From: Terribacillus aidingensis
Lineage (GTDB): Bacteria; Bacillota; Bacilli; Bacillales; Amphibacillaceae
Reading direction: 5' to 3'
Length of the DNA: 64,000 nt
Assembly: GCF_040703035.1 (NCBI RefSeq)
Contig: NZ_CP159996.1
Coordinates: 3,196,001-3,260,000, forward strand
Numbering within the stretch: position 1 is the first letter of the stretch; each line of letters begins with the position of its first letter. This document shows positions 2,157 through 32,650 of the stretch, piece after piece. The notes under the pieces are model-generated. The model had not been told where the DNA came from. It saw only the letters and a program-made list of their open reading frames with translations, and searched no databases. A program made the translations under genes and the position numbers.

Positions 2157-2172
2157 TTATGATACGGTTCCC
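2157..2172. repeat. Left attachment-site repeat (att copy distal to rlmH)
   Basis: TTATGATACGGTTCCC matches the rlmH 3' end at 15 of 16 positions and has the same orientation. The single difference (C for T) is synonymous in the rlmH frame (Pro codon CCG for CCA). Confidence 0.7.
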
Positions 2173-2183
2173 GTGGTGCATCT

Positions 2184-2225
2184 AAATGAGGTTTTGTTTA
2201 ATATTTATTAAATAACCTCATTTTT
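2184..2225. terminator. Hairpin just inside the left island end
   Basis: AAATGAGGTT and AACCTCATTT form a 10-bp stem around an AT-only loop, followed by a T-rich run on the plus strand. It may end transcription at the island edge. The arm ATGAGGTTT is also present, inverted, next to the right att copy (13639-13647), so it could alternatively belong to the element's terminal repeats. Confidence 0.45.
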
Positions 2226-2755
2226 CTTCTGCATAAGAATTCCTTCTCCTCATGAATATAATTCAAGTAATTAAGCATTTTGTCGATTAATTCTCTACAA
2301 TTGCAATTCTTCAACTTAACCGACCTATAAGTATTAAAGTGCTTATTTGGTTTATCTGGGTATTGTTTTCCATCAATTAAAATTGAATCGGTTAGATAAG
2401 AAAAGTCAAACCACACATATTGTTATCAAGTAATTTATGGGCTATTTTTACTACAAACTCTTTTTCACTTTCAATAAATAATCAGAATTGAACTTCTTGA
2501 ATTTGTATTCCTACAATAATGGGACTGTCTAACTTTTGACCAATTACATATTTGGCTTCAGTAATACCCGAACCCCGTATAAAACCGGAATCTGTAAAAA
2601 CCTCTTGGTTTCTATCCTTTTTCTAATTATTCCCTGAAACTAAAACCACATCACCAATTTCATTTTGGATTCTACTATGCAATTCTGTTGCTAAAATCTC
2701 ATGGTTAAGCTTTAAATAAAAATGTGCATACACCAATTTTCACTTCTAATCGAAG
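2198..2755 (-). pseudogene. Decayed gene of unknown family at the left island end
   Basis: On the minus strand, consecutive stretches of coding-like sequence continue one another across frame changes and stops. Read from high to low coordinates they contain LNHEILATELHSRIQNEIGD, then GFIRGSGITEAKYVIGQKLD, then SEKEFVVKIAHKLLDNN, then the 72-codon open frame at 2198-2416 containing YLTDSILIDGKQYPDKPNK. At least two stops and a frame change interrupt it. I do not recognise the family. The 72-codon piece is better read as the tail of a dead gene than as a small gene. Confidence 0.5.
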
Positions 2756-2875
2756 CCCTGAGAAGTGGACTGACGTTGTCGGCAACCATGGAATGATGAC
2801 GGCGATATTAGACCGACTAAAGAACCAGCAAAAGATTTTTAAGGACTAAAAGTGTTCAATTGGGGTTGACGGCTA
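2750..2875 (+). pseudogene. IS21-family remnant (IstB-like ATPase C-terminus and right end)
   Basis: A plus-strand reading gives PEKWTDVVGNHGMMTAILDR, followed by a short tail and a stop at about 2850. This matches the C-terminal part of IstB helper ATPases (E-W-x-D/E-x-x-G-D/N-x-x-x-x-x-A-I-L-D-R-L). The segment normally following LDR is missing, so the copy carries an internal deletion. The DNA right after it, tgttcaattggggttgacgg, ending in CA, resembles IS21-type terminal sequence. No istA is left. Confidence 0.6.
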
Positions 2876-2886
2876 CATAGCTCTCT

Positions 2887-5800
2887 CTATTTATACTTCC
2901 TTTTAATTTTCGGTACAATCTCCGGTAATGCTTTCATGAGCTCCATATTATGTTCCAATAGGTTACTAGTTTTTGGGTTATTAATCGAATCATGATCAAT
3001 ATTACTTGTTAATTCATCGATATAAGGAATTTCCTTTGGATTCGCTGTTGAATAGGCTTCTACCGATTTTTCAAAAATTATTTCATTAAGTCCCCACTCT
3101 CGGGACACTTTGTAAATTTCACCTTTTAATTTGTTCCGCTTCCATTCTTCATATGCTTCATCAAAGTTAACATCACTCGCTACATTTCCAGGTTCTAATT
3201 CCTCTTCAACAAATTGCTTCAGTAGCTCTGCTTGATCAAAATCACCCATATTACTTAATTCTTCAATATGTTGATAAATAATACGTAATGTTTCTGCGTC
3301 CACTGTTTGTTTTCCGTTTGTCGAAGTGGCTTTGTCCCCGATTAATTGAATTATATAATACGCATCTATTTTTTGTGTACCAGCTAGCTTTGCTTCACCT
3401 AAAGGTAATACAGGTAATTCTTCTGGATCGTCGTCCGGATTATCATCTCTCGTTACGTTACGATATGCACCGACATAACGCATCCACTCATGTTCTGTTA
3501 TACCGAATGCTTCATCTACCCAAGCAAATTCATAATATTGCTGAATCGTATTTAGTTGACCGTTTGCCTTTTTAAAAGCTTTTACAAAGATTTCCTTTGC
3601 CTCTTCATCTTTTTCTAAGGCTTGCCATGCCGTTGGATCTTGTAATATCTGTATCACTTCTTGTGAGTATTTTACAAATTCATCTACTGCTACGGGATAG
3701 GGTTCTACAATTGCTTTACTACTCTTTCCGCCACTTCCATATAAAATTAATGCATCATTTACTGCTTCTTCCGTTATTCTTGGGTACTGGAAGTTGACAA
3801 TCGTACCAAATTCCTTTTCTTTCCCATAGATACGGTTTGTGCGTGAATAGGCTTGAATTAATCCTTGTAGTGCAAGTGAACGATCCACATATAATGCGTT
3901 AATAAATTTAGAATCATAACCTGTTAGTAACTGATCTGCAACAATAACAAGGTCAATGTTTTTCGGATTTCGACCACTTCCACCTCGTGTTGCTCGTTCA
4001 ACGACATCTTCATAATATGCATCGTCACCCCTTCGCTTATCACCGTAAGCATATTCAATTCCAGTGAAAGCTGCATAATCTTTAAACATCGTTTTAATTA
4101 ATTCTGGATCGGTAGGTTCTTTATCTGCATCTGTTCCAAAACTAAATGTCATCGCCACGTTAATAGCAATATCATCACGTTCCGCTAATTGCTTTTTAAA
4201 CTCTTCATAGTAAGCAATTACTCGATGTTTGAATGCGACAGTTAAAATGGCATTGAAAACCTTATGTCGTGATTGATCTTCCCAGTTGTTTAATATTTCC
4301 TCAACTACTCTCGGGATATGTGTCTCATCATGATAAAACAATAATTTACGTTTTTTTGCTTCCTTTTCTACTTCTAACTCGGAGAGTTCATATACTTGTC
4401 GTTCCAGTTTTCTCTTTGGGGTGTCAGGTTGTTCAGCTAATTTATATTCAACAATTTGCTCTCGTAATGTATCGTAACTTTCAAACTCTCCGGTATTTAT
4501 GTAGTCAACATGAAATCCTAATACGTTTTTATCTGCAATTGCTTCATCTATCGTATATTGATGCAATAGTGGTCCGAAAAGCTTTTCTGTTGTATCGATG
4601 AGTTCACTCTTCTCATTGATCATTCCTTTAATCTTATTCTCATCAAATAAGGGTGTCCCAGTAAACCCATAAAACAAACCATTTTTCCGGAAGTAATTTT
4701 TAATGGTTACCATCATATCACCCATTGTCGTTCTGTGAGCTTCATCAATAATAAAGACGATTTTATTATTTGCTAAACTTTCGTCCTTCGCTTCAATTAA
4801 ATCTTTCACAAGATTATTTAATTTAAACGTTGTCGTTACAACGATACCTGTACTAGGAGATGACAAGAGTTTACGTAATTGAAATGTGTGTGCTGTATCA
4901 TCAACTGTTACTGATTCGTATTGTGCATATGCTTTAAAATTATCACTCGTACGACTGTCGAGTTCCTTTCGATCCACTAAGAAAACAACGTTATCAAATC
5001 CTGCTCTAGTTGATAAAAATAGAGCTGTTTTAAAACTCGTGATCGTTTTACCTGAACCTGTTGTATGCCAAACAAATCCACCATGAGGAATTTTATCTTC
5101 ATTATCCCACCCTAAGGCAGCACCTTCGACAGCTTGTAAGGCATGTACTTGATAAGAGCGCAATAGCATATGCTTGCAATTTTCCGCTTCTCTTGCTTCA
5201 TCAATGACTAAATAATCACCAACCATTTGGTGTGCCATCGGAATCATTAAGAAGTGACCAATGACATCTTCCCAATGATTAATTGGTTGATTATGCTTAT
5301 TCGCCCAATGAAAAACAAAACTTGGATTAAATGCTTGAATTGACTTTGGTGTTGCAAAGTAACGAGTAGCTACTTCTGATGTCATCACCATCATTTGTGA
5401 AAATGCCATAAAATTATTCACATATTCACCATCTGCATAATAACGTTTAAACTGATTAAATGCTTCTTCTAACGATTTATCTGTACGCTTTTGCTCAATA
5501 TTAATAAGTGGTAGACCATTAATGAGTAAAACAATATCAAAACGATTTCCATTCGGTGTTTCTACTTCTCTCGCGATATTATAACTTGAATCTCCACCAC
5601 GTACTTGTGCCTTTTTTAAGATGGTCAAAGTAATTTGTTCGCGTGTTACGTCTGGATGAGCATCTCGATAAATGCCATCAATTTTCCCAGTTGATTGTTC
5701 CATTGCTAAAATCTTTGCCGCTTCATAACTATTATCAATTTGCGATACTTTTGCCATCACTTGTGCAAATTCATTGTCTGTTAAAGGAACACTTTCCAAG

Positions 5801-5976
5801 GCATCCGCATTCATTCGGTTCAGTTCTCCACGCCAATGATTTACTAAATCTTGTACAGTAACCTTTTGTTTATTTCCATTAAGAAAATCTGGTGCTTTCC
5901 ATTTATATTGTTGTAGTTTTGCAGCGAACTTATCTTGAAAAGCTTTCTCTGCCGCGTTTTTTCGCCCATTACTCAT
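2887..5976 (-). CDS. hsdR: Type I restriction enzyme R subunit (HsdR)
   Basis: At 1029 residues it has the expected length. The N-terminal nuclease domain carries a PD-(D/E)xK-type core (FDIVLLINGLPLINIEQKR, about 148-166). The helicase part has Walker A TTGSGKT (about 305), DEAH in IIDEAHRT (about 410), and FYGFTGTP downstream. A C-terminal helical domain binds the methylase core. HsdR translocates DNA using ATP and cuts when HsdM-HsdS meets an unmethylated site. It is the last gene of a leftward hsdM-hsdS-hsdR operon, 15 bp after hsdS, with ribosome site gagaggaag before ATG. It appears intact. Confidence 0.95.
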   Translation of the reverse strand: MSNGRKNAAEKAFQDKFAAKLQQYKWKAPDFLNGNKQKVTVQDLVNHWRGELNRMNADALESVPLTDNEFAQVMAKVSQIDNSYEAAKILAMEQSTGKIDGIYRDAHPDVTREQITLTILKKAQVRGGDSSYNIAREVETPNGNRFDIVLLINGLPLINIEQKRTDKSLEEAFNQFKRYYADGEYVNNFMAFSQMMVMTSEVATRYFATPKSIQAFNPSFVFHWANKHNQPINHWEDVIGHFLMIPMAHQMVGDYLVIDEAREAENCKHMLLRSYQVHALQAVEGAALGWDNEDKIPHGGFVWHTTGSGKTITSFKTALFLSTRAGFDNVVFLVDRKELDSRTSDNFKAYAQYESVTVDDTAHTFQLRKLLSSPSTGIVVTTTFKLNNLVKDLIEAKDESLANNKIVFIIDEAHRTTMGDMMVTIKNYFRKNGLFYGFTGTPLFDENKIKGMINEKSELIDTTEKLFGPLLHQYTIDEAIADKNVLGFHVDYINTGEFESYDTLREQIVEYKLAEQPDTPKRKLERQVYELSELEVEKEAKKRKLLFYHDETHIPRVVEEILNNWEDQSRHKVFNAILTVAFKHRVIAYYEEFKKQLAERDDIAINVAMTFSFGTDADKEPTDPELIKTMFKDYAAFTGIEYAYGDKRRGDDAYYEDVVERATRGGSGRNPKNIDLVIVADQLLTGYDSKFINALYVDRSLALQGLIQAYSRTNRIYGKEKEFGTIVNFQYPRITEEAVNDALILYGSGGKSSKAIVEPYPVAVDEFVKYSQEVIQILQDPTAWQALEKDEEAKEIFVKAFKKANGQLNTIQQYYEFAWVDEAFGITEHEWMRYVGAYRNVTRDDNPDDDPEELPVLPLGEAKLAGTQKIDAYYIIQLIGDKATSTNGKQTVDAETLRIIYQHIEELSNMGDFDQAELLKQFVEEELEPGNVASDVNFDEAYEEWKRNKLKGEIYKVSREWGLNEIIFEKSVEAYSTANPKEIPYIDELTSNIDHDSINNPKTSNLLEHNMELMKALPEIVPKIKRKYK

Positions 5977-5991
5977 TGAATAGCTTCCTCT

Positions 5992-7188
5992 CTACACAAA
6001 CATTTCTTCTAAATAAGCCTCTTTCATTTTCTTTAGTTTTTCTAGCTTTTTTTCTTCTGTTTTAATTTGATCATCTAAGTTTGTAAAGAACAACGATAAC
6101 ATTTCTAGCTCTTTTATATTGTTTGAAATAAGTATTTCTATGTTTGACATTACATTATTCATAAGCTTTGGATTTCCAATCTTAGAAACATGTTTCCATG
6201 CCTTTAAATCAAGTATTTCAGCGACAGCTTTACAAGCATATCCTTCTTTAGAAATAAGGACACCATTAACATTTGTACTATAGAATTTACCTTCTCTGTA
6301 ATTAACTGTACCCGCATTAGCCCCATCAGTAGTCCAGGTAATAGCTGTGTCAAATAAATAATCAGAATAATAACCCAATAGACCATTATTTTGGGTTTGT
6401 GAGGAATATACCGGATAATGTGAAATCTTACTCTGTTTTTTTTCGATTTTTGTTGTTGAAAGTACATTACCTCTTGTCACTTGAAATATATCCCCTACTC
6501 TTCGTCTTACCCATTTCTCTTCAAATCCCTCAAATCTTCTTTTCGGTAGGGTTTCGCCTTCTTGTGGTAACATTTCGGTTAAATAGGCAGACTTTAATGC
6601 TTTTACTTTAGCAATCATTCTTTCTTGATTTGCAATTCTTTCATCTAAAATCTTAAAAAATTTACCGATTTTTTGTTGTTCAATTAAATATGGAAACTTT
6701 ATAGGCGAAGCATTTGCAGGTTTTAAAGTGAAGTGTTTAATTGTCCCACCTGAAGATGCAACATCCATATACTTTTGCATTCTTGGACTCATAAAATAAA
6801 TACTCATAAAAGAGCCATCTAACAACTTTGAGGTCGATGTCTTTATATATAGAATAGCCCCACCCTGCACATACACTGGTGATTCGTCTTCTTTGTGATA
6901 CACAACTCCAACTTTCCCACCACTGGTAAATAAAACATCTCCCTTTTGTGGCGCACCAGTTTTTAACACGAATCCTTCATAGGTCTCTTTAGAAATAAAT
7001 AGTTCACCTTGTAACTTTTCATTTGCTAAATCACTGGATCTTAGATAGGGAATGCCTTTTTCTTCCCATAATTTATTTGAGATCCTCGCGCTATCTTTTA
7101 CTTCTGCTAGTTCTCCTAACTTACGCAGTTCCCAATCATTCGTAAACCCTTCGAACCTTCTCTTTGGAAATGAATTCTTTTGTTCCAT
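5992..7188 (-). CDS. hsdS: Type I restriction-modification specificity subunit (HsdS)
   Basis: A 398-residue protein with two target-recognition domains. Each half begins with a related segment, FPKRRFEGFTNDWELRKLGE near residue 8 and LPKRRFEGFEEKWVRRRVGD near 213. Each recognition domain is followed by a coiled-coil spacer (about 165-200 and 370-395). HsdS sets the bipartite DNA target and bridges two HsdM subunits. Its ATG overlaps the hsdM stop as TAATG (7186-7190), indicating translational coupling. The target sequence cannot be predicted by eye. Confidence 0.93.
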   Translation of the reverse strand: MEQKNSFPKRRFEGFTNDWELRKLGELAEVKDSARISNKLWEEKGIPYLRSSDLANEKLQGELFISKETYEGFVLKTGAPQKGDVLFTSGGKVGVVYHKEDESPVYVQGGAILYIKTSTSKLLDGSFMSIYFMSPRMQKYMDVASSGGTIKHFTLKPANASPIKFPYLIEQQKIGKFFKILDERIANQERMIAKVKALKSAYLTEMLPQEGETLPKRRFEGFEEKWVRRRVGDIFQVTRGNVLSTTKIEKKQSKISHYPVYSSQTQNNGLLGYYSDYLFDTAITWTTDGANAGTVNYREGKFYSTNVNGVLISKEGYACKAVAEILDLKAWKHVSKIGNPKLMNNVMSNIEILISNNIKELEMLSLFFTNLDDQIKTEEKKLEKLKKMKEAYLEEMFV

Positions 7189-9749
7189 TACTCAGTCACC
7201 ACCAGTTCTTCAAGCATTGCTTCAAATTGTGCTTCTAGTGATTTACTTTCTTCTTCAATGGTTTCTAACGTATCAGCATATCTTTCCTTTAATTCTTTCA
7301 ATATATCCAGCTCATTTTTAAGAGGTGCTTCTACAAGTTTTATTATGTCTCCTGTTAATTGACCAAACCACTTTTTATATATCAGTTGATCGATTTCTTC
7401 ATTCGTTAAGTTTTCAATTCTTTCTTCAACTTGTTCAGTTAATTCCTTTTCTTTTTCTCTAATTGCTTTGTTTAAAGATACTCTTTCATCCAATAGTTTT
7501 CTTACCTTGTCTAATAAAACATATTCACCCGTATCTTTAGCAACTTTCTTTAATTCTGCTTTTACTGCTGATAAAGTAAAGTCGTCTTCTCTAGCATTTA
7601 AAGCATCTCCTAAGATTTGCGCTTCTTCACTTTCTTCTACTTTTGCCGCTTCAACGAGTTCATTTATTTCATCATTAATAGCTGCTAAAGCTTCTTTTTG
7701 TGTTTCCACATCACGTAGTTCTTCTGTATAGAGTTCCTTTAATATAAGTTCATTCAGTACAATTGCTCCAACCCAACCTTCTTGTTCTGTTCGCTTTGTT
7801 TTACCAGAACCTTTTGTAACCATATTCGCTTCGCGTGTTTTTCCGACTGTGTAAAAGTCACTAATAGCAATTTTCTCTGTATCTTGGGATAGTATATTTT
7901 CCCATAACTCCGCAATAATTTGATAACCATCATACATATTAACGTGATTAAATTGTTTTAATAGCTCTTTAATTTCCGATAACATTTCTTCTTTTAACGG
8001 TTCAATATCGTTCACGTCAGCCACTGTTTTTAACTTTTCCCAATATGTATCCATATAGGACTCTGTTACTTCTTTTATTGCCTTAATTTTATTTTGTACG
8101 TCTACATGTGTTAGCACTTCTTCTCTTAAATCTTTTACTGATTGTGTTAATTCCACATAGCCTGGACGTACTTCAGTAAGCGCATTAAATAAAACATCTT
8201 TCGTCATCTCGTTTAGCACAGTTAGTTTTTTAATCTGGCTTAACGGAATACCGCCATACAAATGTGCATCTACATCATGGGCAATATCTTCTTCGACCAC
8301 TTCAATATAACGTGGGATATTTATGTTATATTCATTTTCTATGATGTCTTTTTTTGTTGCAAGATAACTATACCCTGGTTCACTCGTCCGTTCGATATAT
8401 GTATCAACAATTTTAGCGATATCCTTCTCTTGTAAGACGTGTTGCTTTCCTTCTTTTACAAACGATTTAGAAGCATCAATCATAAGAACAGGGTCATCTA
8501 ACTTTCGGTTCTTTTTCAAAATCAACACCGTTACAGGAATGCCTGTATTGGTAAACAGTTTATCTGGCAAGCCAATGACTGTATCAATATAGTTTTTCTC
8601 TAATAGTCGTTTACGAATTTCCCCTTCTGCCCCTCCACGGAATAATACACCATGTGGAAGTACAATTGCCATCGTACCTTCTTGACCTAAATGGAATATG
8701 CCGTGTAATAAAAAGGCATAATCACCTTTAGAATCTGGTGGTAACACTCCTGCAACTTCAAATCGCGGGTCTGTTACTTTTAAGTCTTCTTGATTCCAAT
8801 TTTTAACTGAGTATGGTGGGTTCATCACGACCGCATCAAACTGAACACCCTCGTTTGGGCGTTCTGGATTCTCAGGCCAATCTTGTCCTAGTGTATCGCC
8901 ATTTTTCACCGTCATTTTTTCTGGTCGAACCCCATGTAATAATAGATTCATTCGTGTTAAGTTATATGTAGCCGTATTTTTTTCTTGCCCATAATAATGG
9001 AGATCTTTTCGGTTATCTTCTGTTAAATATCGACTAACCGTTAAAAGTAATGAACCCGAACCAACAGTAGGGTCATAAATCGATTTTACTTCCGTCGTTT
9101 TGGCAACAATTTGTGCCATGACTTCACTTACTTGACGTGGCGTATAGAACTCTCCAGCTTTTTTTCCCGATTCCATCGCAAACTGCCCGATTAAGTATTC
9201 GTAAGCATCTCCTAACACATCACCTTTTTGAAGTGCAACCATATTTAGATCGGCGAATAATTCAATTAATTTACGGATATTTTTACTTCGAGCATTCAAG
9301 TTGCTTCCTAAAGCAGTGTCAGTAAGATCAATCGTAGAACTAGAAAAAAGTCCTTTAAAATCATCGATATCTCCAGTTGTAGCAACAGTACGTTCAAAAC
9401 TTTGTAAGCTCTCTGTTACCTTCTCTAATTCAAATGTGCCTTCACGAATATCTTTTAACCACGTCTGATATAAGTGTTTAGGTAAAACATAATAACCAAG
9501 GACATTTTGAATCATATTGATGAGATTGTCCCCATAACTTGCATAGGCCTCTTCATAAGCTTGGACAATTTCTTCCTCATTCCCTTTAGCACCGCTTGTT
9601 TTGACAAATGTTTCAAGTGTTTTATCACTAAGGAACTTATAGAACATTAATCCTAGCATATAATCTTTATAACGACTCGCATCCATAGAACCACGAAGGT
9701 CATTAGCACCGTCCCATAGTCTACTTTTAATATCATCTGATGTAATCAT
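7188..9749 (-). CDS. hsdM: Type I DNA adenine methyltransferase M subunit (HsdM) with long C-terminal extension
   Basis: At 853 residues it is clearly longer than the usual 500-550. It has an N-terminal HsdM helical domain, SAM-binding motif I DPTVGSGS (about 226) and catalytic NPPYS (about 308). The segment GLPDKLFTNTGIPVTVLILKK is typical of N6-methylase family proteins. From about residue 540 onward the chain is charged and predicted helical, probably coiled coil, rich in Glu/Lys. HsdM methylates adenine in the HsdS-defined site and is needed for restriction. First gene of the hsd operon, with ribosome site gagggag before ATG. Confidence 0.93.
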   Translation of the reverse strand: MITSDDIKSRLWDGANDLRGSMDASRYKDYMLGLMFYKFLSDKTLETFVKTSGAKGNEEEIVQAYEEAYASYGDNLINMIQNVLGYYVLPKHLYQTWLKDIREGTFELEKVTESLQSFERTVATTGDIDDFKGLFSSSTIDLTDTALGSNLNARSKNIRKLIELFADLNMVALQKGDVLGDAYEYLIGQFAMESGKKAGEFYTPRQVSEVMAQIVAKTTEVKSIYDPTVGSGSLLLTVSRYLTEDNRKDLHYYGQEKNTATYNLTRMNLLLHGVRPEKMTVKNGDTLGQDWPENPERPNEGVQFDAVVMNPPYSVKNWNQEDLKVTDPRFEVAGVLPPDSKGDYAFLLHGIFHLGQEGTMAIVLPHGVLFRGGAEGEIRKRLLEKNYIDTVIGLPDKLFTNTGIPVTVLILKKNRKLDDPVLMIDASKSFVKEGKQHVLQEKDIAKIVDTYIERTSEPGYSYLATKKDIIENEYNINIPRYIEVVEEDIAHDVDAHLYGGIPLSQIKKLTVLNEMTKDVLFNALTEVRPGYVELTQSVKDLREEVLTHVDVQNKIKAIKEVTESYMDTYWEKLKTVADVNDIEPLKEEMLSEIKELLKQFNHVNMYDGYQIIAELWENILSQDTEKIAISDFYTVGKTREANMVTKGSGKTKRTEQEGWVGAIVLNELILKELYTEELRDVETQKEALAAINDEINELVEAAKVEESEEAQILGDALNAREDDFTLSAVKAELKKVAKDTGEYVLLDKVRKLLDERVSLNKAIREKEKELTEQVEERIENLTNEEIDQLIYKKWFGQLTGDIIKLVEAPLKNELDILKELKERYADTLETIEEESKSLEAQFEAMLEELVVTE

Positions 9750-10250
9750 GTTCTTTCTCCCTCAATTATATTTATTTTTCAATCAGACCACTCGATAAGG
9801 AAGCCTTCGACAACTTTTATGCAATACTTTTTAATGTGGTATACCATCTCAACGCATCCGTATCGTCATGCTTCAAAAAAGTTACTCGCTTTTGTAAATA
9901 ATCGGTGGTTATGGTTTTTCTTGATTTATAAACTAAGACTTTTAACCCGATTTATAATTGATAATTATATCTTAGGCTATCATGTAAACGTGATGATTTC
10001 ATTTAAATGTTTTTCATCTCTTAGCTATTATTGAAATAGCTTCATTCATTTGTAACAATCATTTTTTATAATCCAGCTACGATATTCATGTTAACAGTTC
10101 AAAATCAATCACCTGTTTTTTTTCTTTTTTAGAAGGTTTACTAGGTCATTTGACTTTTTAGAGACTTGGGCACAAGAACCTTGTCTCACCTAGTCAAATA
10201 CATACTTGTCGGTCCATTTTCGTGTCCCTGCGTCCCTATAGGATAATAGT
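9750..10250. other. Intergenic stretch inside the island without a gene
   Basis: I see no convincing gene in these 500 bp. It must contain the hsdM promoter, but I could not pick a clear -35/-10 pair. The only structured feature is the inverted repeat at 10148-10199. Confidence 0.5.
10148..10199. repeat. 52-bp interrupted inverted repeat
   Basis: ATTTGACT and AGTCAAAT close an imperfect hairpin whose interior pairs AGAGAC region bases with GTCTC and CAAG with CTTG. It lies between the frameshifted gene and hsdM, both leftward. It could be a terminator or an inserted repeat. Confidence 0.4.
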
Positions 10251-10776
10251 TTAATCTACTTTTAAAAATCCTGTTTTCACTTCTTCCTCAATCACTTCTG
10301 TTAAACTGTTTCGTGTTATTTTCAAGCTTTTATTTGCTGTTAACCTAACTACTTTAGGAAAGCCGTCTTCATTTCCATCATATTAATAACACTCGAGTAA
10401 TTCCCTTTATCACGAGTTGAGTGTGGAATTGGACCAAATAGAATAAGTCTATTTTCTGGTCTATGACTAATCGTTTAAAATTAATTTTTTTATATTCATT
10501 AAATCCTAAATGCAGTTTCACTCTATCTTTGTCAATTCCTTGATTTTTAAATATCTGATAGATAACGTGTTCTTTAACATTACTCTCTCCAAAAATATGT
10601 ATATTTCCGTTTGGATAAGTAAAGCTGTTTTCTTGTTCTCGTAGCAAATCAATTAAATTATACTCATTTAAAGTTATTCTTAACGTTCTTTCGTCAGTAG
10701 CTTGTATAATTTTTCGAGTTAAAATAGATGAGGCTTCAGCAGCGATGTCAAATAGCAACTCTTGATCTACTTGCAT
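10251..10776 (-). pseudogene. Frameshifted partner gene of the methylase-specificity fusion (unknown family)
   Basis: The open frame from 10776 runs 132 codons (MQVDQELLFDIAAEASSILT...). Coding-like sequence continues past it in other frames. Near 10455-10470 the reading moves to a frame giving RPENRLILFGPIPHSTRDKG, and near 10368-10385 to another giving EDGFPKVVRLTANKSLKITR, ending at a stop at 10251. Two single-base-type shifts thus break a protein of about 170 residues. It starts just downstream of the fusion gene at 10778 and was surely its partner. The family is not one I can name. Sequencing or assembly indels are an alternative. Confidence 0.6.
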
Positions 10777-10777
10777 C

Positions 10778-12445
10778 CTACCTCACCTCCATAATTTTAT
10801 TCTTTTCTTCTTCAATTCGCTTAATTCTCTCCAAAGTAACTTTTTGTTCTCTCTTCAATAAATCATATGCTTTTCCAATTTTGTTTTGTTCCTCTTCTGT
10901 CAGCACTGGAATCATAATTTTTTCTAAATCTCTAATACTTAAAGTCTTCATCACGGTTCCTTTTTCGTATTTCTGTAGTTCTCTCATACCTAATTCACTT
11001 TGCAAATAAGCTTCAAGGTACTTTGTATTGATTTTATTTTCATCAATCTCTAAAAAGTATAAGTTACCGTTAACTAATATTTGTTTTTCTTTTTGTTCAA
11101 TAGATGCCACTTTAAATGGAGACATTTTAGATATAATTAATGAATCATTTTTTATTACATGTTTTTCTAATGATGGATCAATTTTCTTTATAAATGGCAA
11201 CTTCTTATTCACTATACCATTTGTAAAACTGTTCAAAGCTAAATATTGGTATGGTGTAGGTGTTTCCGACTCTATTTCCTTTAAATTATTATTAGAAATC
11301 ATTGCACCACGATTAATTGTTTTGACAACATCTTTTAATTGTACTGTATTTTCATAAGGTAAATCTGGAATTAAATAGCGTTTTGAAGATAATATAAAAT
11401 CTTCATTTTCTATAACTTCAAATTTGCAAGTTTTACTTAATGGTCCAATAACCTCAATTGCTTTAATGATTTCTTTAATATCGTCATCTTTTAAAACTGT
11501 TTTATGTCGTGTTTTAGTGCCCATTTTTGTCGCATCGACAAATGAAACACTCGAATTATTTTTACTTAAAACAAGCAAACTTACTGGTATGCCTGAATAA
11601 TCCAATAACCCCCCCGGGAGATCTATGACTGCTTCAATTAAACCATCTTTTAATAATTGTTTTCGAATTAGGGCATCACGATTATTAACCATTGGAGCTT
11701 CATTCATTACAACTACTACTTTTTCAAAGTTTGAATGTAAAACCGCATCTAATACGAATAACCAAGTACTATCATAATTAGGAATTAATTCTTCGTATGC
11801 TGTCCCACTAATTTTTTTATTAAGTACTTCATCATATATATCTTTTGACACCCTAAGTCCGAGTGGTCCATTTATAAATACCTTGTTTGCTCCGAATACA
11901 CTGATATCAGTTTTGAGTGCATTACCTAAAATAATATTTGATGTATCTTTATTCAGCATGTCTAGTAATAGTTTCGAATGAATATACGCCTGTGGATTAA
12001 TTTCTACACCCATTAGTGCTACATCTTTTTCCATCGACAATTGCGCCAATGTAAAACCTAATCCTGAGCAAATATCAAGTACTGAATCTTTATTATGAAT
12101 ATCAAGTAGTCGATCTACTAATTTTATAATACTGATAGGCGTTTTTTGTATAGTGTTCTCACTATTATCAAATATTAATGTTTGTTCTACAATCTCTAGC
12201 CATTCCTTCTCTGATAGTATTGATATCTGTTTAAATTTTTCTATTAGATTACTATTATCCTCATAAAAATCTTTTAAGGCCCATTTTACTTTTTCATCTT
12301 CAATATTCGTGAGTATCTCCTCGAATCCCATTTTTCGCAACTTTTGACTTAAATATAAAGCAATAAACTGTGAGTAAGGTTCCTGTTTGCCATCTCCTCT
12401 TGTTTCACTAACTACTCTTAATAAATCATTGATTCTGTTCTCCAA
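10778..12445 (-). CDS. N6-methylase-like protein fused to a specificity (TRD) domain, catalytic motif altered
   Basis: About 555 residues. The N-terminal part resembles HsdM: motif I is DICSGLG (about 124), and LPGGLLDYSGIPVSLLVLSK is the usual family segment. At the NPP(Y/F) position it reads INGPLG (about 191), so adenine methylation is doubtful. From about residue 370 it resembles one HsdS target-recognition domain, ending in a coiled coil (KREQKVTLERIKRIEEEKNK). The open frame runs up to 12478, but GGAGG at 12454-12458 favours a TTG start at 12445 or GTG at 12448. It may bind DNA without modifying it. Three palindromic repeats overlap its promoter. Confidence 0.75.
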   Translation of the reverse strand: MENRINDLLRVVSETRGDGKQEPYSQFIALYLSQKLRKMGFEEILTNIEDEKVKWALKDFYEDNSNLIEKFKQISILSEKEWLEIVEQTLIFDNSENTIQKTPISIIKLVDRLLDIHNKDSVLDICSGLGFTLAQLSMEKDVALMGVEINPQAYIHSKLLLDMLNKDTSNIILGNALKTDISVFGANKVFINGPLGLRVSKDIYDEVLNKKISGTAYEELIPNYDSTWLFVLDAVLHSNFEKVVVVMNEAPMVNNRDALIRKQLLKDGLIEAVIDLPGGLLDYSGIPVSLLVLSKNNSSVSFVDATKMGTKTRHKTVLKDDDIKEIIKAIEVIGPLSKTCKFEVIENEDFILSSKRYLIPDLPYENTVQLKDVVKTINRGAMISNNNLKEIESETPTPYQYLALNSFTNGIVNKKLPFIKKIDPSLEKHVIKNDSLIISKMSPFKVASIEQKEKQILVNGNLYFLEIDENKINTKYLEAYLQSELGMRELQKYEKGTVMKTLSIRDLEKIMIPVLTEEEQNKIGKAYDLLKREQKVTLERIKRIEEEKNKIMEVR

Positions 12446-12459
12446 CACAAACACCTCCA

Positions 12460-12536
12460 TGGTTTTTATATACCACATTTAATCTTGGTTTAAATATACC
12501 ATTTATATCTTTTTTGTCAATGGTTTATATATACCA
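12460..12536. promoter_or_regulatory. Three copies of a 16-bp near-palindrome (operator array)
   Basis: TGGTTTTTATATACCA (12460-12475), TGGTTTAAATATACCA (12486-12501) and TGGTTTATATATACCA (12521-12536) share TGGTTTNNATATACCA, with TGGT/ACCA half-sites. They flank and overlap the promoter of the fusion gene. That arrangement fits repression by a dimeric regulator. No regulator gene is evident in the island, so either the fusion protein, its partner or an outside factor would bind. Confidence 0.65.
12493..12520 (-). promoter_or_regulatory. Sigma-A promoter of the methylase-specificity fusion
   Basis: On the minus strand, TTGACA (12520-12515) and TATATT (12498-12493) are separated by 16 bp. The gene starts about 48 bp downstream. 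The -10 lies inside one palindromic repeat, and another borders the -35. Confidence 0.7.
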
Positions 12537-12674
12537 GGTTAAGATATCGATATTTTTTAAGATATTTATTGTTCTAAAACTTTGTTACATAAATTTAAAA
12601 ATGATCACCAATTTTAAGCGATAACAGAAAATTATATAAGTTTAACATGATGCAATTACATGTTCTAAAGAAAT

Positions 12675-12706
12675 GAGGCTATTCCCTTTAAGATGGGAAT
12701 AGCCTC
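12675..12706. terminator. 12-bp perfect hairpin next to the recombinase remnant
   Basis: GAGGCTATTCCC and GGGAATAGCCTC pair perfectly around an 8-nt loop. On the minus strand it is followed by atttcttt. It could be a terminator or part of the recombinase-element debris. Confidence 0.5.
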
Positions 12707-12708
12707 TC

Positions 12709-13188
12709 ATGCCAGATTACGAATTCAATTAAAGCTTACGATGCAGAAGATGCTGTACTCAACTGTTTAATAGAATTCTTAAAAGATAGGGTTTGCTTTA
12801 ATCAGACTATAGAAAATATTAATAAACACACGTTTAAATTAAATGTACAACTAAAACTACAGATAGATAGCATTGAAATAGAGCTTAAAGAAGTTAATTT
12901 CATATACGGAAGCAGTTGAAAAAAACCTCTTTCCAGTTTCCACTCTTCAGGAACGAGTACAGAAAGTATCTAAACGGAAGAGCAACTTAGAACAAAAGAA
13001 AAATGAACTCTGCAATAATCTAAGTTCATCAAATTAGAAAGTCATCCCACTAGATGTTATAAGACACTTATTAGAAAAATTTTTGCAAGTATACCAACAA
13101 TCACCTAGAGATAAAAATAAACAACTCTTTCAACTTTTACTAGCTAATATAACTCTTGAAATCCGCTTCTTGCACTCGCATCGTTGAT
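12709..13188 (+). pseudogene. C-terminal remnant of a large serine recombinase
   Basis: The plus strand reads SCQITNSIKAYDAEDAVLNC and then a helical coiled-coil segment (IEFLKDRVCFNQTIENINKH...). After a stop and a frame change it continues with VEKNLFPVSTLQERVQKVSK and, past another stop, with VIPLDVIRHLLEKFLQVYQQ, ending at 13188. This is the order found at the end of large serine recombinases: the end of the zinc ribbon, the coiled-coil motif, then the C-terminal helices. The catalytic and DNA-binding N-terminal domains are absent. It could be a Ccr-type or other integrase relic. Confidence 0.65.
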
Positions 13189-13207
13189 AAAGTACCATCT
13201 TATGTAT

Positions 13208-13615
13208 TTAATTTAAAAAACTCTTAAGCGCTGAAATTTTATCTTCTATTTTTTTTTGATTATCACTTATCCCACTTTGACTCAAAGGTTCCTTCTGCTT
13301 GATTAGTTCAAGTTCTCGTTTTTTCCTTGAAACTTTATCGTCATTGCTCTCAATTAGACTAAATCTCAACGTTATGCTTGAATCTTCAATTTGTTCTTTA
13401 TAAAATCCAAAGTATTTTGGATTCTTATATAGTTCAAACAAATGTGCTGCACACCTAACTAAAACAAAAACTGATTCGCCTATGTATAGTGCCTTAATTT
13501 TGTTGTTCTTTTCCACACTAATTTCATATACTCCAGAACCAATCGCCTTTATTAAATTTCCCTGAAAAAATTCAATGTTAATATTCATATTTGTTTCTTT
13601 CAAACTTAAGACCAC
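13208..13615 (-). CDS. GIY-YIG-like small protein
   Basis: 135 residues from a GTG at 13615, or 126 from the ATG at 13588. GSGVYEISVEKNNKIKALYIGES contains a GVY...YIG pair with the spacing of GIY-YIG nuclease folds, followed by an Arg (VRCAAH) and a later Glu-rich, lysine-rich helix (KKRELELIKQKEPLSQSG). The family cuts DNA or acts in repair and mobile elements. Whether this copy is catalytic cannot be decided by eye. It sits between the recombinase remnant and rlmH, thus inside the island, and is the gene nearest the att site. Confidence 0.6.
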   Translation of the reverse strand: MVLSLKETNMNINIEFFQGNLIKAIGSGVYEISVEKNNKIKALYIGESVFVLVRCAAHLFELYKNPKYFGFYKEQIEDSSITLRFSLIESNDDKVSRKKRELELIKQKEPLSQSGISDNQKKIEDKISALKSFLN

Positions 13616-13638
13616 CTGTCATATTTTTTATTACCCTT

Positions 13639-13667
13639 AAACCTCATCTACTTATGATATGGTTCCC
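13639..13667. repeat. Right attachment site at the rlmH 3' end
   Basis: TTATGATATGGTTCCC (13652-13667) encodes the last residues of RlmH (EPYHK) on the minus strand and is repeated at 2157-2172. The adjoining AAACCTCAT (13639-13647) recurs inverted at the left end (2186-2194). Confidence 0.7.
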
Positions 13668-14127
13668 CCTTAATAATCCGAAAAGCCCGATAAACCTGCT
13701 CCACCAACACCAGCTTCATCAACTGATGCGGAAATGTCATCTTCGAAAACGACAGCGCATAATCACTCCGTTGCATGACTTCCTCACTCAATCCCAGAGA
13801 TCCACCAATCACAAACACAATCTTGCTCTTTCCATAAGTCGCCAGGCTGTCAATTTTCGACGCGAGTTGTTCGGATGTGATCATTTGGCCTTTTATTTCC
13901 AGGGAAATGACGTAGTCGTCGGGGCCGATTTTCGACAGGATGCGGTCGCCTTCTTTTTGTTTGACGATTTGCATGTCTGCTTCGCTCAGGTTTTCGGGGG
14001 CTTTTTCGTCTGGTACTTCGACTAGGTCGACTTTGGCGTAGGCGCCGAGGCGTTTTGTGTATTCCTCGATGCCTTGCTTGAGGTATTTTTCCTTTAGTTT
14101 GCCGACGCTGATGATGGTGATTTTCAT
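13648..14127 (-). CDS. rlmH: 23S rRNA (pseudouridine1915-N3)-methyltransferase RlmH
   Basis: A 159-residue SPOUT methyltransferase of standard length. It begins [20 protein letters not shown] and shows the SAM-binding knot segment [13 protein letters not shown] (about 104-116). It ends with the conserved [13 protein letters not shown]. It methylates Psi1915 in helix 69 of 23S rRNA in assembled 70S ribosomes. It is the orfX gene of staphylococci, whose 3' end is the SCC integration site. Here the reading frame is intact despite the insertion. The ATG follows a good ribosome site. Confidence 0.96.
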
Positions 14128-31690: not shown

Positions 31691-32650
31691 ATGTCTAGTG
31701 AAGAGATTCGCTTTTCAAAAGCTCTCAAGTCGATTGCTAGAGACCAAGAAATAAAAGCCTATCTTCAAAATTCAGAAGAGCTTTATCCCTTTCTCATTAA
31801 AGGTGCAGACCGTTTTGTAGCTGGAGAAACACGCAGGGAAGGAATGAGCCGTGTCATAAGCCTTTATAATAAAGGCTATCAGGTTTCATTGGAGTTTATC
31901 GGCGAAAACACAACGTCTAAAAAAGAATGTATGATTGCCAAAAATGAATTTATAGAATTAATAAAAGATCTAGGAAATAATCAACTGGCGGCTACCGTAT
32001 CATTAGATCTATCTCATATCGGGATGATGATTTCTGAGAAGATTGCATTTGCTAATTTAGAAGAGTTAGCAAATGAAGCACAAAAGCGTAATATTCAACT
32101 TATGATAAGTATGGAAGAATCGCAAAAAACAGATACGATTTTATCACTATATAAAAGGATATCGAAAATTTTCTCAAATGTTGGGATAACATTACAAGTT
32201 CATTTGAAGCGTTCATACAATGACCTTAATGACCTACTGAAAACGACTGGCAGAATACGTTTAGTAAAGGGAGCTTATCAAGAGCCGGAAGGTATATATA
32301 TACCAAGATCCGAGGAGTTAAATACACGGTATTCAGAATTTGTATCCAAGTGTATCGATAGTAATCATCCATTGTCTATTGCTACACATGATGAAAGTTT
32401 ATTGATGGACCTAAAAGCGAAGGGTTTTCTTTATAGTCCGAATGTTGAAGTAGAGATGCTGGATGGGGTTCAGTCTGACCTTTTAAAATCATTAAAAGAG
32501 GATAATATCCAGGCTAAAGTTTACGTAACATACGGCAGTGAGTGGTATTTGTATTTAGTTCATCGGATTGCTGAGTATCCTCCGAATATATATACTTTTA
32601 TATCAGATATTATTGAACAAAATAATGATAGAGAGAAAAATGCTTACTAA
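31691..32650 (+). CDS. Proline dehydrogenase-family protein
   Basis: 319 residues, usual for the stand-alone Bacillus-type enzyme. PRODH barrel motifs are visible: LAATVSLDLSHIGMM, RIRLVKGAYQEPEG (about 191-204), LSIATHDESLL (about 234-244) and VEMLDGVQSDLLKSL (about 255). The enzyme oxidises proline to pyrroline-5-carboxylate with FAD at the membrane. No P5C dehydrogenase gene is adjacent, which is less usual. ATG follows AAGGAG. Confidence 0.88.
   Translation: MSSEEIRFSKALKSIARDQEIKAYLQNSEELYPFLIKGADRFVAGETRREGMSRVISLYNKGYQVSLEFIGENTTSKKECMIAKNEFIELIKDLGNNQLAATVSLDLSHIGMMISEKIAFANLEELANEAQKRNIQLMISMEESQKTDTILSLYKRISKIFSNVGITLQVHLKRSYNDLNDLLKTTGRIRLVKGAYQEPEGIYIPRSEELNTRYSEFVSKCIDSNHPLSIATHDESLLMDLKAKGFLYSPNVEVEMLDGVQSDLLKSLKEDNIQAKVYVTYGSEWYLYLVHRIAEYPPNIYTFISDIIEQNNDREKNAY

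Follow-up and report, generated by a model that had tools for sequence, protein, structure and literature searches.

How did a cassette that holds a restriction system and a dead recombinase reach the 3' end of rlmH, and could it move again? This question is raised by an 11.5-kb insert in Terribacillus aidingensis (assembly GCF_040703035.1), located in the 64,000-nucleotide stretch of contig NZ_CP159996.1 that was analyzed here (positions 3,196,001 to 3,260,000, or G000:C1:3196001-3260000; hereafter "the window", in which all plain coordinates are given). The genome is a single contig of 3,576,432 bases (3.58 Mb). In staphylococci, the same chromosomal slot is occupied by the staphylococcal cassette chromosome (SCC), best known as the carrier of methicillin resistance. 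A first-pass annotation of the window had proposed an SCC-like cassette that became immobile when its recombinase decayed. We consider it probable that the insert is a non-autonomous SCC-like cassette, which combines ends of one recombinase class (class E) with type I restriction cargo and the dead relic of a recombinase from another class (class A), and which was moved most likely in trans.

Insertion site and duplicated core

The insert is bounded by two copies of the rlmH 3' end, TTATGATACGGTTCCC at 2157-2172 and TTATGATATGGTTCCC at 13652-13667, which agree in 15 of 16 bases. The sequence thus confirms the initially reported 16-bp repeat with one mismatch, its right copy being the end of rlmH and its left copy lying 11.5 kb away. 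Allowing up to three mismatches, the repeat had three matches in the window (the third, at 31990-32005, with three mismatches), compared with a mean of 0.46 in 100 shuffled sequences, none of which reached three. The core GGRGARCCNTAYCATAA (up to one mismatch) occurs exactly twice in the whole genome, namely at both insert ends. On these grounds a chance repeat was ruled out. The insert shares with SCC and other cassette chromosomes the position at the rlmH 3' end and the duplicated core, and both core copies contain the TATCATAA motif with the C whose importance is pointed out in PMC6222049. The attachment (att) features are as follows.

2157 to 2172, minus strand: attL core GGGAACCGTATCATAA, with GA at 2169-2170 as the putative crossover dinucleotide; the empty site of genome G005 has one copy of the core
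2179 to 2196, plus strand: class E left attP arm CATCTAAATGAGGTTTTG, in inverted orientation to the right arm
13639 to 13647, minus strand: class E motif ATGAGGTTT of the right attP arm, at a distance of 16 nt from the crossover
13648 to 14127, minus strand: rlmH (PF02590), the host gene and insertion site
13652 to 13667, minus strand: attR core, i.e. the last codons of rlmH, with the putative crossover GA at 13664-13665

In G005, which belongs to the same genus, rlmH is followed by ~70 bp, then by tetR and adh, and only one core, GAGCCTTATCATAAATAAGGTGAAGC, is present. The left flank of the window insert reads GAACCGTATCATAATAAGGTGAAGC, and the two genomes align on both sides of the insert, leftward from 2172 and on the rlmH side down to 13639. 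This empty site with a single core, as sought in the comparison of related genomes that the first-pass annotation had suggested, supports an insertion. The proposal of an SCC-like cassette at rlmH is borne out by G005 and by Ccr-related recombinases (Ccr, cassette chromosome recombinase) at rlmH in many relatives (see below).

All ten genus genomes searched contain one rlmH. The distance between rlmH and tetR is 11.5 kb in the window genome, 15.1 kb in G007, 7.4 kb in G003 and 3.6 kb in G006, and the proteins of the window cassette had no match in this interval of the latter three genomes. Among the part of their open reading frames (ORFs) that was scanned, G007 encodes Mza-family proteins and a methylase, G003 a helicase, an MzaB-like protein and a methylase, and G006 a type IV restriction enzyme (1016 bits) and a NUDIX protein. 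No window-like tetR or adh match was found within ~18 kb in G001, G002, G004 and G008. G009, from the same species as the window, has a different right junction, and none of the window cassette proteins occur in the 8.4 kb before its contig ends. Vertical inheritance of the rlmH-tetR interval was ruled out, because the genus genomes differ in this interval.

Class E arms at the two cassette ends

In relatives, the sequence at many left ends is ...ACGGT GA ACC..., and that of rlmH is ...GGGG GA ACC... From the shared GA ACC we infer that the crossover occurs at GA, and PMC10581047 likewise gives a central GA for ccrAB. On each side, an inverted arm is located ~16 nt from GA, and its sequence depends on the recombinase class. 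These classes were named from the rlmH-side arms or from position before any tree was built.

Class A arm: AGAGGCAAAA
Class B arm: AGGGTAAAA
Class D arm: GGTAGC or GGTAA
Class E arm: AAATGAGGTTTT

The window cassette has inverted arms of one class, with ATGAGGTTT at both ends. The class E clade comprises 14 recombinases, and GTAAATGAGGTTTT was present in nine of the 11 for which the rlmH end was seen; its two deepest branches have related but different arms, GTAAGTGAG (G508) and GTAAGTGCG (G218). Across 31 two-ended cassettes, the longest same-offset match between the arms of one cassette averaged 6.7 bases versus 4.5 for swapped pairs, and matches of at least seven bases were obtained for 45% of own arms versus 13% of swapped pairs. 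The insert can be classified as an SCC-like cassette on the basis of its site, its core and its inverted att arms. It would have entered rlmH through recombination at the central GA between a class E attP and the last rlmH codons, and the element would thereby have supplied new last codons of rlmH.

The recombinase relic belongs to another class

The recombinase remnant of the cassette aligns, in two frames and with an internal stop, to residues ~333-495 of a class A recombinase. When it was scored against 118 recombinases, the 20 best-scoring ones were the 20 class A members (top score 217 bits; best class E score 22 bits), and the candidate assignments to class E or to Ccr proper were ruled out by these scores. 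Since the relic is class A and both ends are class E, ends and relic come from different systems, and the window cassette is a mosaic. The relic had initially been regarded as the recombinase fitting this cassette, a view that the two class assignments do not support. It had also been placed directly beside rlmH; the decayed pieces do exist at 12692-13184, but a 135-aa ORF (13208-13615) lies between them and rlmH.

No functional ccr gene was found inside the cassette, which holds only this C-terminal relic. Att sites are retained in the absence of ccr, as in pseudo-SCC elements, which are mentioned in PMC10061031. The NCBIfam equivalog test (SCCmet_CcrA/B/C), which was run on a class A relative from locus L042 and not on the relic itself, gave 381 bits for CcrB, below the cut-off of 900. 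The class A recombinase adjoining rlmH in G134 had CcrB as its best NCBIfam match (381 bits, same cut-off), followed by CcrC.

The cassette in a second genus and its cargo in a third

A contig scan, which relies on short exact patterns, revealed two loci that encode a relative of the cassette protein MS, in Alkalicoccobacillus murimartini DSM 19154 (L210) and Virgibacillus senegalensis SK-1 (L211). The parts of the window cassette are listed below, with the ratio of nonsynonymous to synonymous substitution rates (dN/dS) where relevant.

2197 to 2886, no strand assigned: left segment, no coherent gene seen; A. murimartini shares 2157-2237 and the sequence from 2839 on, and the ~600 bp between are not shared
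2887 to 5976, minus strand: hsdR, type I restriction subunit, intact (Pfam, NCBIfam, PADLOC); dN/dS 0.09
5992 to 7188, minus strand: hsdS, specificity subunit with two target domains that differ among the three hosts (Pfam, NCBIfam, PADLOC)
7188 to 9749, minus strand: hsdM, type I methyltransferase, intact (Pfam, NCBIfam, PADLOC)
10378 to 10776, minus strand: orf132, frameshifted by two 1-nt deletions; V. senegalensis has the open form, of 175 aa
10778 to 12478, minus strand: MS, 566 aa, fusion of an N6-adenine methylase domain with a single HsdS target domain; dN/dS 0.31-0.38
12692 to 13184, plus strand: relic, C-terminal third of a class A Ccr-like serine recombinase, in three pieces
13208 to 13615, minus strand: GIY-like ORF (giy), 135 aa, with a GIY-YIG match below threshold (E 0.006) and 98.5% identity to its A. 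murimartini counterpart

In L210, the window cassette lies behind rlmH with the same right arm. Besides the GIY-like ORF, high identities were found for MS (95%), hsdM (93%), hsdR (94%) and the relic pieces (90-95% at the amino acid level). The two relics are identical in 550 of 573 aligned nucleotides (96%) and share the frame break and the in-frame TAG; the L210 relic contains one further two-base deletion. At the left end, homology reaches CACCACGG and stops at GA to within two bases. L210 then continues with AGAGGCTTATAATAAATAG, which is plausibly an older rlmH ending, and blastn found no homology between window and L210 beyond this end. The host genes differ strongly: rlmH is only 74% identical at the nucleotide level, with a synonymous divergence (dS) of 1.07. 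For the cassette genes, dS was 0.04 for giy, 0.06 for MS, 0.15 for hsdM, 0.29 for hsdR and 1.40 for hsdS, the latter reflecting domain exchange.

As independent decay to the same lesions is very unlikely, the common lesions indicate that the cassette moved between genera without an enzyme of its own, after the death of the recombinase. The view that decay had immobilized the cassette is contradicted by this copy, which carries the same dead relic and ends at the crossover. According to the mechanism that we propose, the cassette had no recombinase of its own, the class A relic would already have been dead at the time of the move between genera, and movement was most likely mediated by a class E Ccr-like recombinase supplied in trans from another element in the same cell.

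In V. senegalensis, 9.8 kb of cargo match the window (12669 to 2877) at 91% nucleotide identity, whereas rlmH is 75% identical. This cargo is located behind a class A right end, together with a scrap of a class A recombinase, which suggests that it was transferred between a class A and a class E frame, in one direction or the other. The V. senegalensis locus and the presence of a class A relic in the window would also fit a scenario in which a class A recombinase belonging to the cassette carried out the insertion, then decayed and left the cassette fixed. However, the arms at both window ends are class E, and the lesions shared with A. murimartini place movement after decay; we therefore regard this scenario as improbable.

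Several observations weigh against a simple transfer in trans. Concerning the ends, the left core of the window lacks one base beside GA and one after the core that are present at other ends, the two window arms agree over nine bases only, at offsets 16 and 15, and the rlmH-tetR inserts of G007, G003 and G006 have no left core, so their ends were either eroded or made differently. In the L210 copy, the ~600 bp of the left segment are missing and hsdS identity is as low as 37%, and the variation of dS along the cassette implies that the history was not one clean jump. An empty site was not found by blastn, run on both strands, in the 1.5 kb around rlmH among 25 genomes (A. murimartini and relatives). 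A helper was also not detected: the class A query had no match at 1e-30 in any of the ten genus genomes, V. senegalensis had no hit to the CcrB model at 1e-20, and the CcrB-model search of A. murimartini gave only a 220-aa ORF at 75 bits. Elsewhere in the window genome, neither the class A query at 1e-30 nor the CcrB model at 1e-60 had a match. Because no helper was found in the three hosts, we infer mobilization in trans rather than observe it.

The lack of a Ccr-like helper in the three hosts would be expected if natural transformation, together with homologous recombination across rlmH and its flanks, had spread the cassette instead, and SCCmec transfer by natural transformation is reported in staphylococci (PMC9072672). 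Such a route is unlikely here, as rlmH is only 74% identical between the two hosts, blastn homology is lacking beyond the left end, and the homology boundary falls at the crossover. Even less probable, in our view, is homing driven by the 135-aa GIY-YIG-like protein through cleavage of the empty rlmH site. The ORF adjoins attR, is more conserved between the two hosts than any other cassette gene (98.5%), and its dN/dS is 0.16. Yet its GIY-YIG match is below the curated threshold (17 versus 22.6 bits), its structure predicted without an alignment is too poor for use (mean predicted local distance difference test score (pLDDT) 44), and homing needs flanking homology, which is poor here. The ORF is furthermore absent from the V. 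senegalensis locus; its relatives were found in L210 alone among the loci searched, and none in viral contigs or PDB sequences.

Ccr-like recombinases at rlmH across the Bacilli

Family-wide, the class A query had matches at 1e-30 in 72 of 159 genomes. Among its 19 matches with at least 56% identity, 18 were directly beside rlmH and one (G093) was elsewhere. In G093 (L083:14690-17940), a tandem pair of class A recombinases is accompanied by an arm and a core of class A and shares its contig with rlmH, ~2 Mb away; this element appears either to have moved or to use another site.

In the class-wide sample, the CcrB model had hits at 1e-60 in 75 of 398 genomes, nine of them above the cut-off and all from one genus. 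A hit of 276 bits or more was present in 46 genomes, and these were compared with the 29 genomes with weaker hits as a control. rlmH was located in 45 of the 46 genomes; in the remaining one, G033, separate searches placed the recombinase beside rlmH. The CcrB-like gene was found up to ~30 kb downstream of rlmH in 34 of these 45 genomes and not in two (G402, G210); in G384 a contig end prevented a call, and in eight genomes gene and rlmH were on different contigs. In the control, 15 genomes had hit and rlmH on different contigs, and among the 14 with both on the same contig the hit was within 10 kb downstream of rlmH in two (G455, G535) and far away in 12. Linkage to rlmH in 34 of 36 genomes with strong hits versus 2 of 14 with weak hits indicates that CcrB-likeness goes together with rlmH linkage. 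A second, weaker rlmH-family match was seen in five of the 29 control genomes (G388, G458, G467, G501, G544).

In a tree of 118 recombinases, classes A, A2, B and D as well as CcrA, CcrB and CcrE each formed one group. A set of 101 rows (the rlmH-linked rows except class D, the Ccr proteins, and G210, which is located away from rlmH) was separated from 12 comparison recombinases and class D with a support of 96 in the Shimodaira-Hasegawa-like approximate likelihood ratio test (SH-aLRT). The 13 comparison rows include 11 located more than 100 kb from rlmH, G263 on another contig, and the very divergent L082 inside an rlmH island. A mixture-model tree of 60 rows, which excludes four long or odd rows, recovered a 37-row clade of classes A, B, C and E, CcrB, CcrC, CcrE and other rlmH-linked recombinases (SH-aLRT 94), with CcrA and the class A partner (A2) outside. 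The relatives of the relic group with CcrB, CcrC and CcrE at SH-aLRT 94-96 in quick-search, midpoint-rooted trees in which class D is unstable and the position of CcrA differs; their placement in a Ccr superfamily separate from other large serine recombinases is therefore tentative. A search of plasmids with a class E recombinase yielded 39 records at 1e-30, all with less than 60% identity.

Many class A elements contain a second, divergent large serine recombinase, either in tandem or many kilobases away (L042:3899-5371, L047:4151-5719 and others, in rlmH orientation), which groups near CcrA in one tree and outside in the other. In L203 and L208 (G402, G454), a CcrB-like recombinase (~495 bits) of the CcrB-bearing genus lies away from rlmH, which recalls the ccrDE island in rimL described in PMC10581047. 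Three class B elements (L099:5629-6105, L100:4799-5275, L108:4813-5289, likewise in rlmH orientation) contain a second rlmH, 61-65% identical to that of the window and 3.8-4.6 kb downstream. At these loci the rlmH end is altered, with the match stopping at residue 157 and no CATAA core, as if the second copy were a replacement for a gene damaged by the element.

The reading frames of these recombinases show a further peculiarity. Among 37 recombinase ORFs of at least 400 aa that face rlmH and end no more than 700 bp away (including L042:2035-3831 and L047:2226-4076, given in rlmH orientation), 36 have a frame that enters rlmH antisense, so that the host supplies the stop codon; the sole exception, L157, has its own. 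Predicted circular and integrated forms were compared for seven recombinases with a recognized other end. Five of classes A, B and D would end 5-14 codons past GA in the circular form versus 19-71 when integrated, and the other two have the reverse pattern (19 versus 3 codons). The C-terminus of the recombinase would hence change with integration. No serine recombinase with a host-supplied stop codon was met in our literature search of open-access papers.

Restriction cargo

The hsdMSR set, described as intact in the first-pass annotation, is complete by Pfam. hsdR and hsdM had dN/dS values of 0.09-0.22 in comparisons with both relatives and are thus under purifying selection. The central region of hsdS is conserved in both comparisons. 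Relative to V. senegalensis, its first target domain has diverged and the second is almost identical; relative to A. murimartini, both target domains are divergent and a C-terminal segment is conserved. This pattern reflects an exchange of HsdS target domains. Based on the low dN/dS of hsdR and hsdM and on the conservation pattern of hsdS, the type I system is probably active, with changing specificity, and the cassette would carry a restriction system whose specificity was altered by swapping HsdS target domains.

The cargo differs from canonical type I restriction-modification (HsdRMS), with which it shares the three protein families, by the adjoining MS fusion and small ORF. The MS start codon ATG reads ACG in A. 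murimartini, and orf132 downstream of MS is frameshifted in the window; together with the dN/dS of MS, these features suggest that the MS module may be decaying. The earlier mention of several broken genes holds for orf132, which is frameshifted compared with the relatives, and for the segment at ~2197-2886. The 175-aa form of orf132 had no Pfam match, and its structure predicted without an alignment was too poor for use (mean pLDDT 33). PADLOC gave weak matches only for MS and nothing for orf132 or the GIY-like ORF, and an assignment of any of the three to a known defence system is thus unsupported by PADLOC. Three copies of the 20-nt repeat TCCATGGTTTTTATATACCA at 12456-12536, which cover the MS start and the region upstream, are possibly an operator.

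Other recombinase-less cassettes at rlmH

Two sets of loci, neither of them selected for recombinases, were screened, one consisting of the window and 20 loci from the 30 best rlmH matches, the other of 39 loci chosen mostly by strand. Together they contain 14 cassettes with two ends recognized within 20 kb, a limit that favours small cassettes; five loci with a full-length Ccr-like gene (L042, L047, L048, L241, L250) had no second end within this distance and were not counted, and the second set left out genomes already fetched, many of them for a recombinase beside rlmH. None of the 14 cassettes had an intact Ccr-like gene; three contained broken pieces (window, L040, L239) and 11 no trace. 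The own arms matched over at least five bases at one offset in seven cassettes (window, L040, L043, L214, L218, L227, L247) and were unmatched in the other seven, four of which (L221, L236, L239, L251) look like fusions of two classes.

The cargo of small cassettes includes PDC-M01/Septu-like and Olokun-like genes in L043, PD-Lambda-5 in L116, and a STAND-like ATPase just below the Pfam cut-off in L114. In L167, a recombinase-bearing class E cassette is followed by a tandem 2.5-kb class E unit with no recombinase seen; by eye, this unit has transporter-like and LysR-like ORFs, which are not defence genes.

A wider reading is that recombinase-less defence cassettes form a population at the rlmH 3' end of Bacilli and act as non-autonomous transposable units. 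These would carry arms of a recombinase class, be moved in trans by Ccr-superfamily recombinases of other elements in the slot, and have their arms, cargo and HsdS domains reshuffled through tandem insertions and fusions. The window cassette would be one of them, caught after a jump between genera. As the arms clearly match in only seven of the 14 cassettes, we give this reading an even chance.

Relation to known elements and implications

The window cassette shares with staphylococcal SCC and ccr-less pseudo-SCC the last rlmH codons, the TATCATAA core, inverted arms and variable cargo. It differs in its arm class (the rlmH-side arm is TGATGCGGTTTTT in four of five loci of the CcrB-bearing genus, L151, L152, L153 and L155, with L154 deviating, versus ATGAGGTTT in the window), in the absence of an own recombinase, in a relic of a different subfamily, and in a host outside the Staphylococcaceae. 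A further difference is the movement after recombinase loss that its inter-genus copy documents. The Enterococcus cassette chromosome (ECC) is likewise an rlmH island with variable cargo; it is inserted by paired large serine recombinases and identified by ccrABEnt (PMC6222049), and no such gene was found in the window. SCC-like islands downstream of rlmH in other Bacillota occupy the same slot and, according to PMC10061031 and PMC10581047, have large serine recombinases, tandem composites, and ends located from the last rlmH bases. The islands of PMC10061031 were chosen for gene pairs of a polymerase and a single-stranded DNA-binding protein; neither such a pair nor a recombinase was seen in the window cassette.

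As SCC-like rlmH islands outside staphylococci have already been published (PMC6222049, PMC10061031), the general reading is not new. The new part is the recombinase-less travelling defence cassette: the same open-access literature search met no precedent for a trans-mobilized defence cassette that lacks a recombinase and moved between genera. The rlmH slot and a related recombinase superfamily extend across the class Bacilli, along with recombinase-free anti-phage cassettes, and the inter-genus copy provides direct evidence for the travel of a cassette that had lost its enzyme. With defined att sites and defined recombinase clades, mobilization in trans becomes testable, and the evolution of SCC is linked to the traffic of defence genes.

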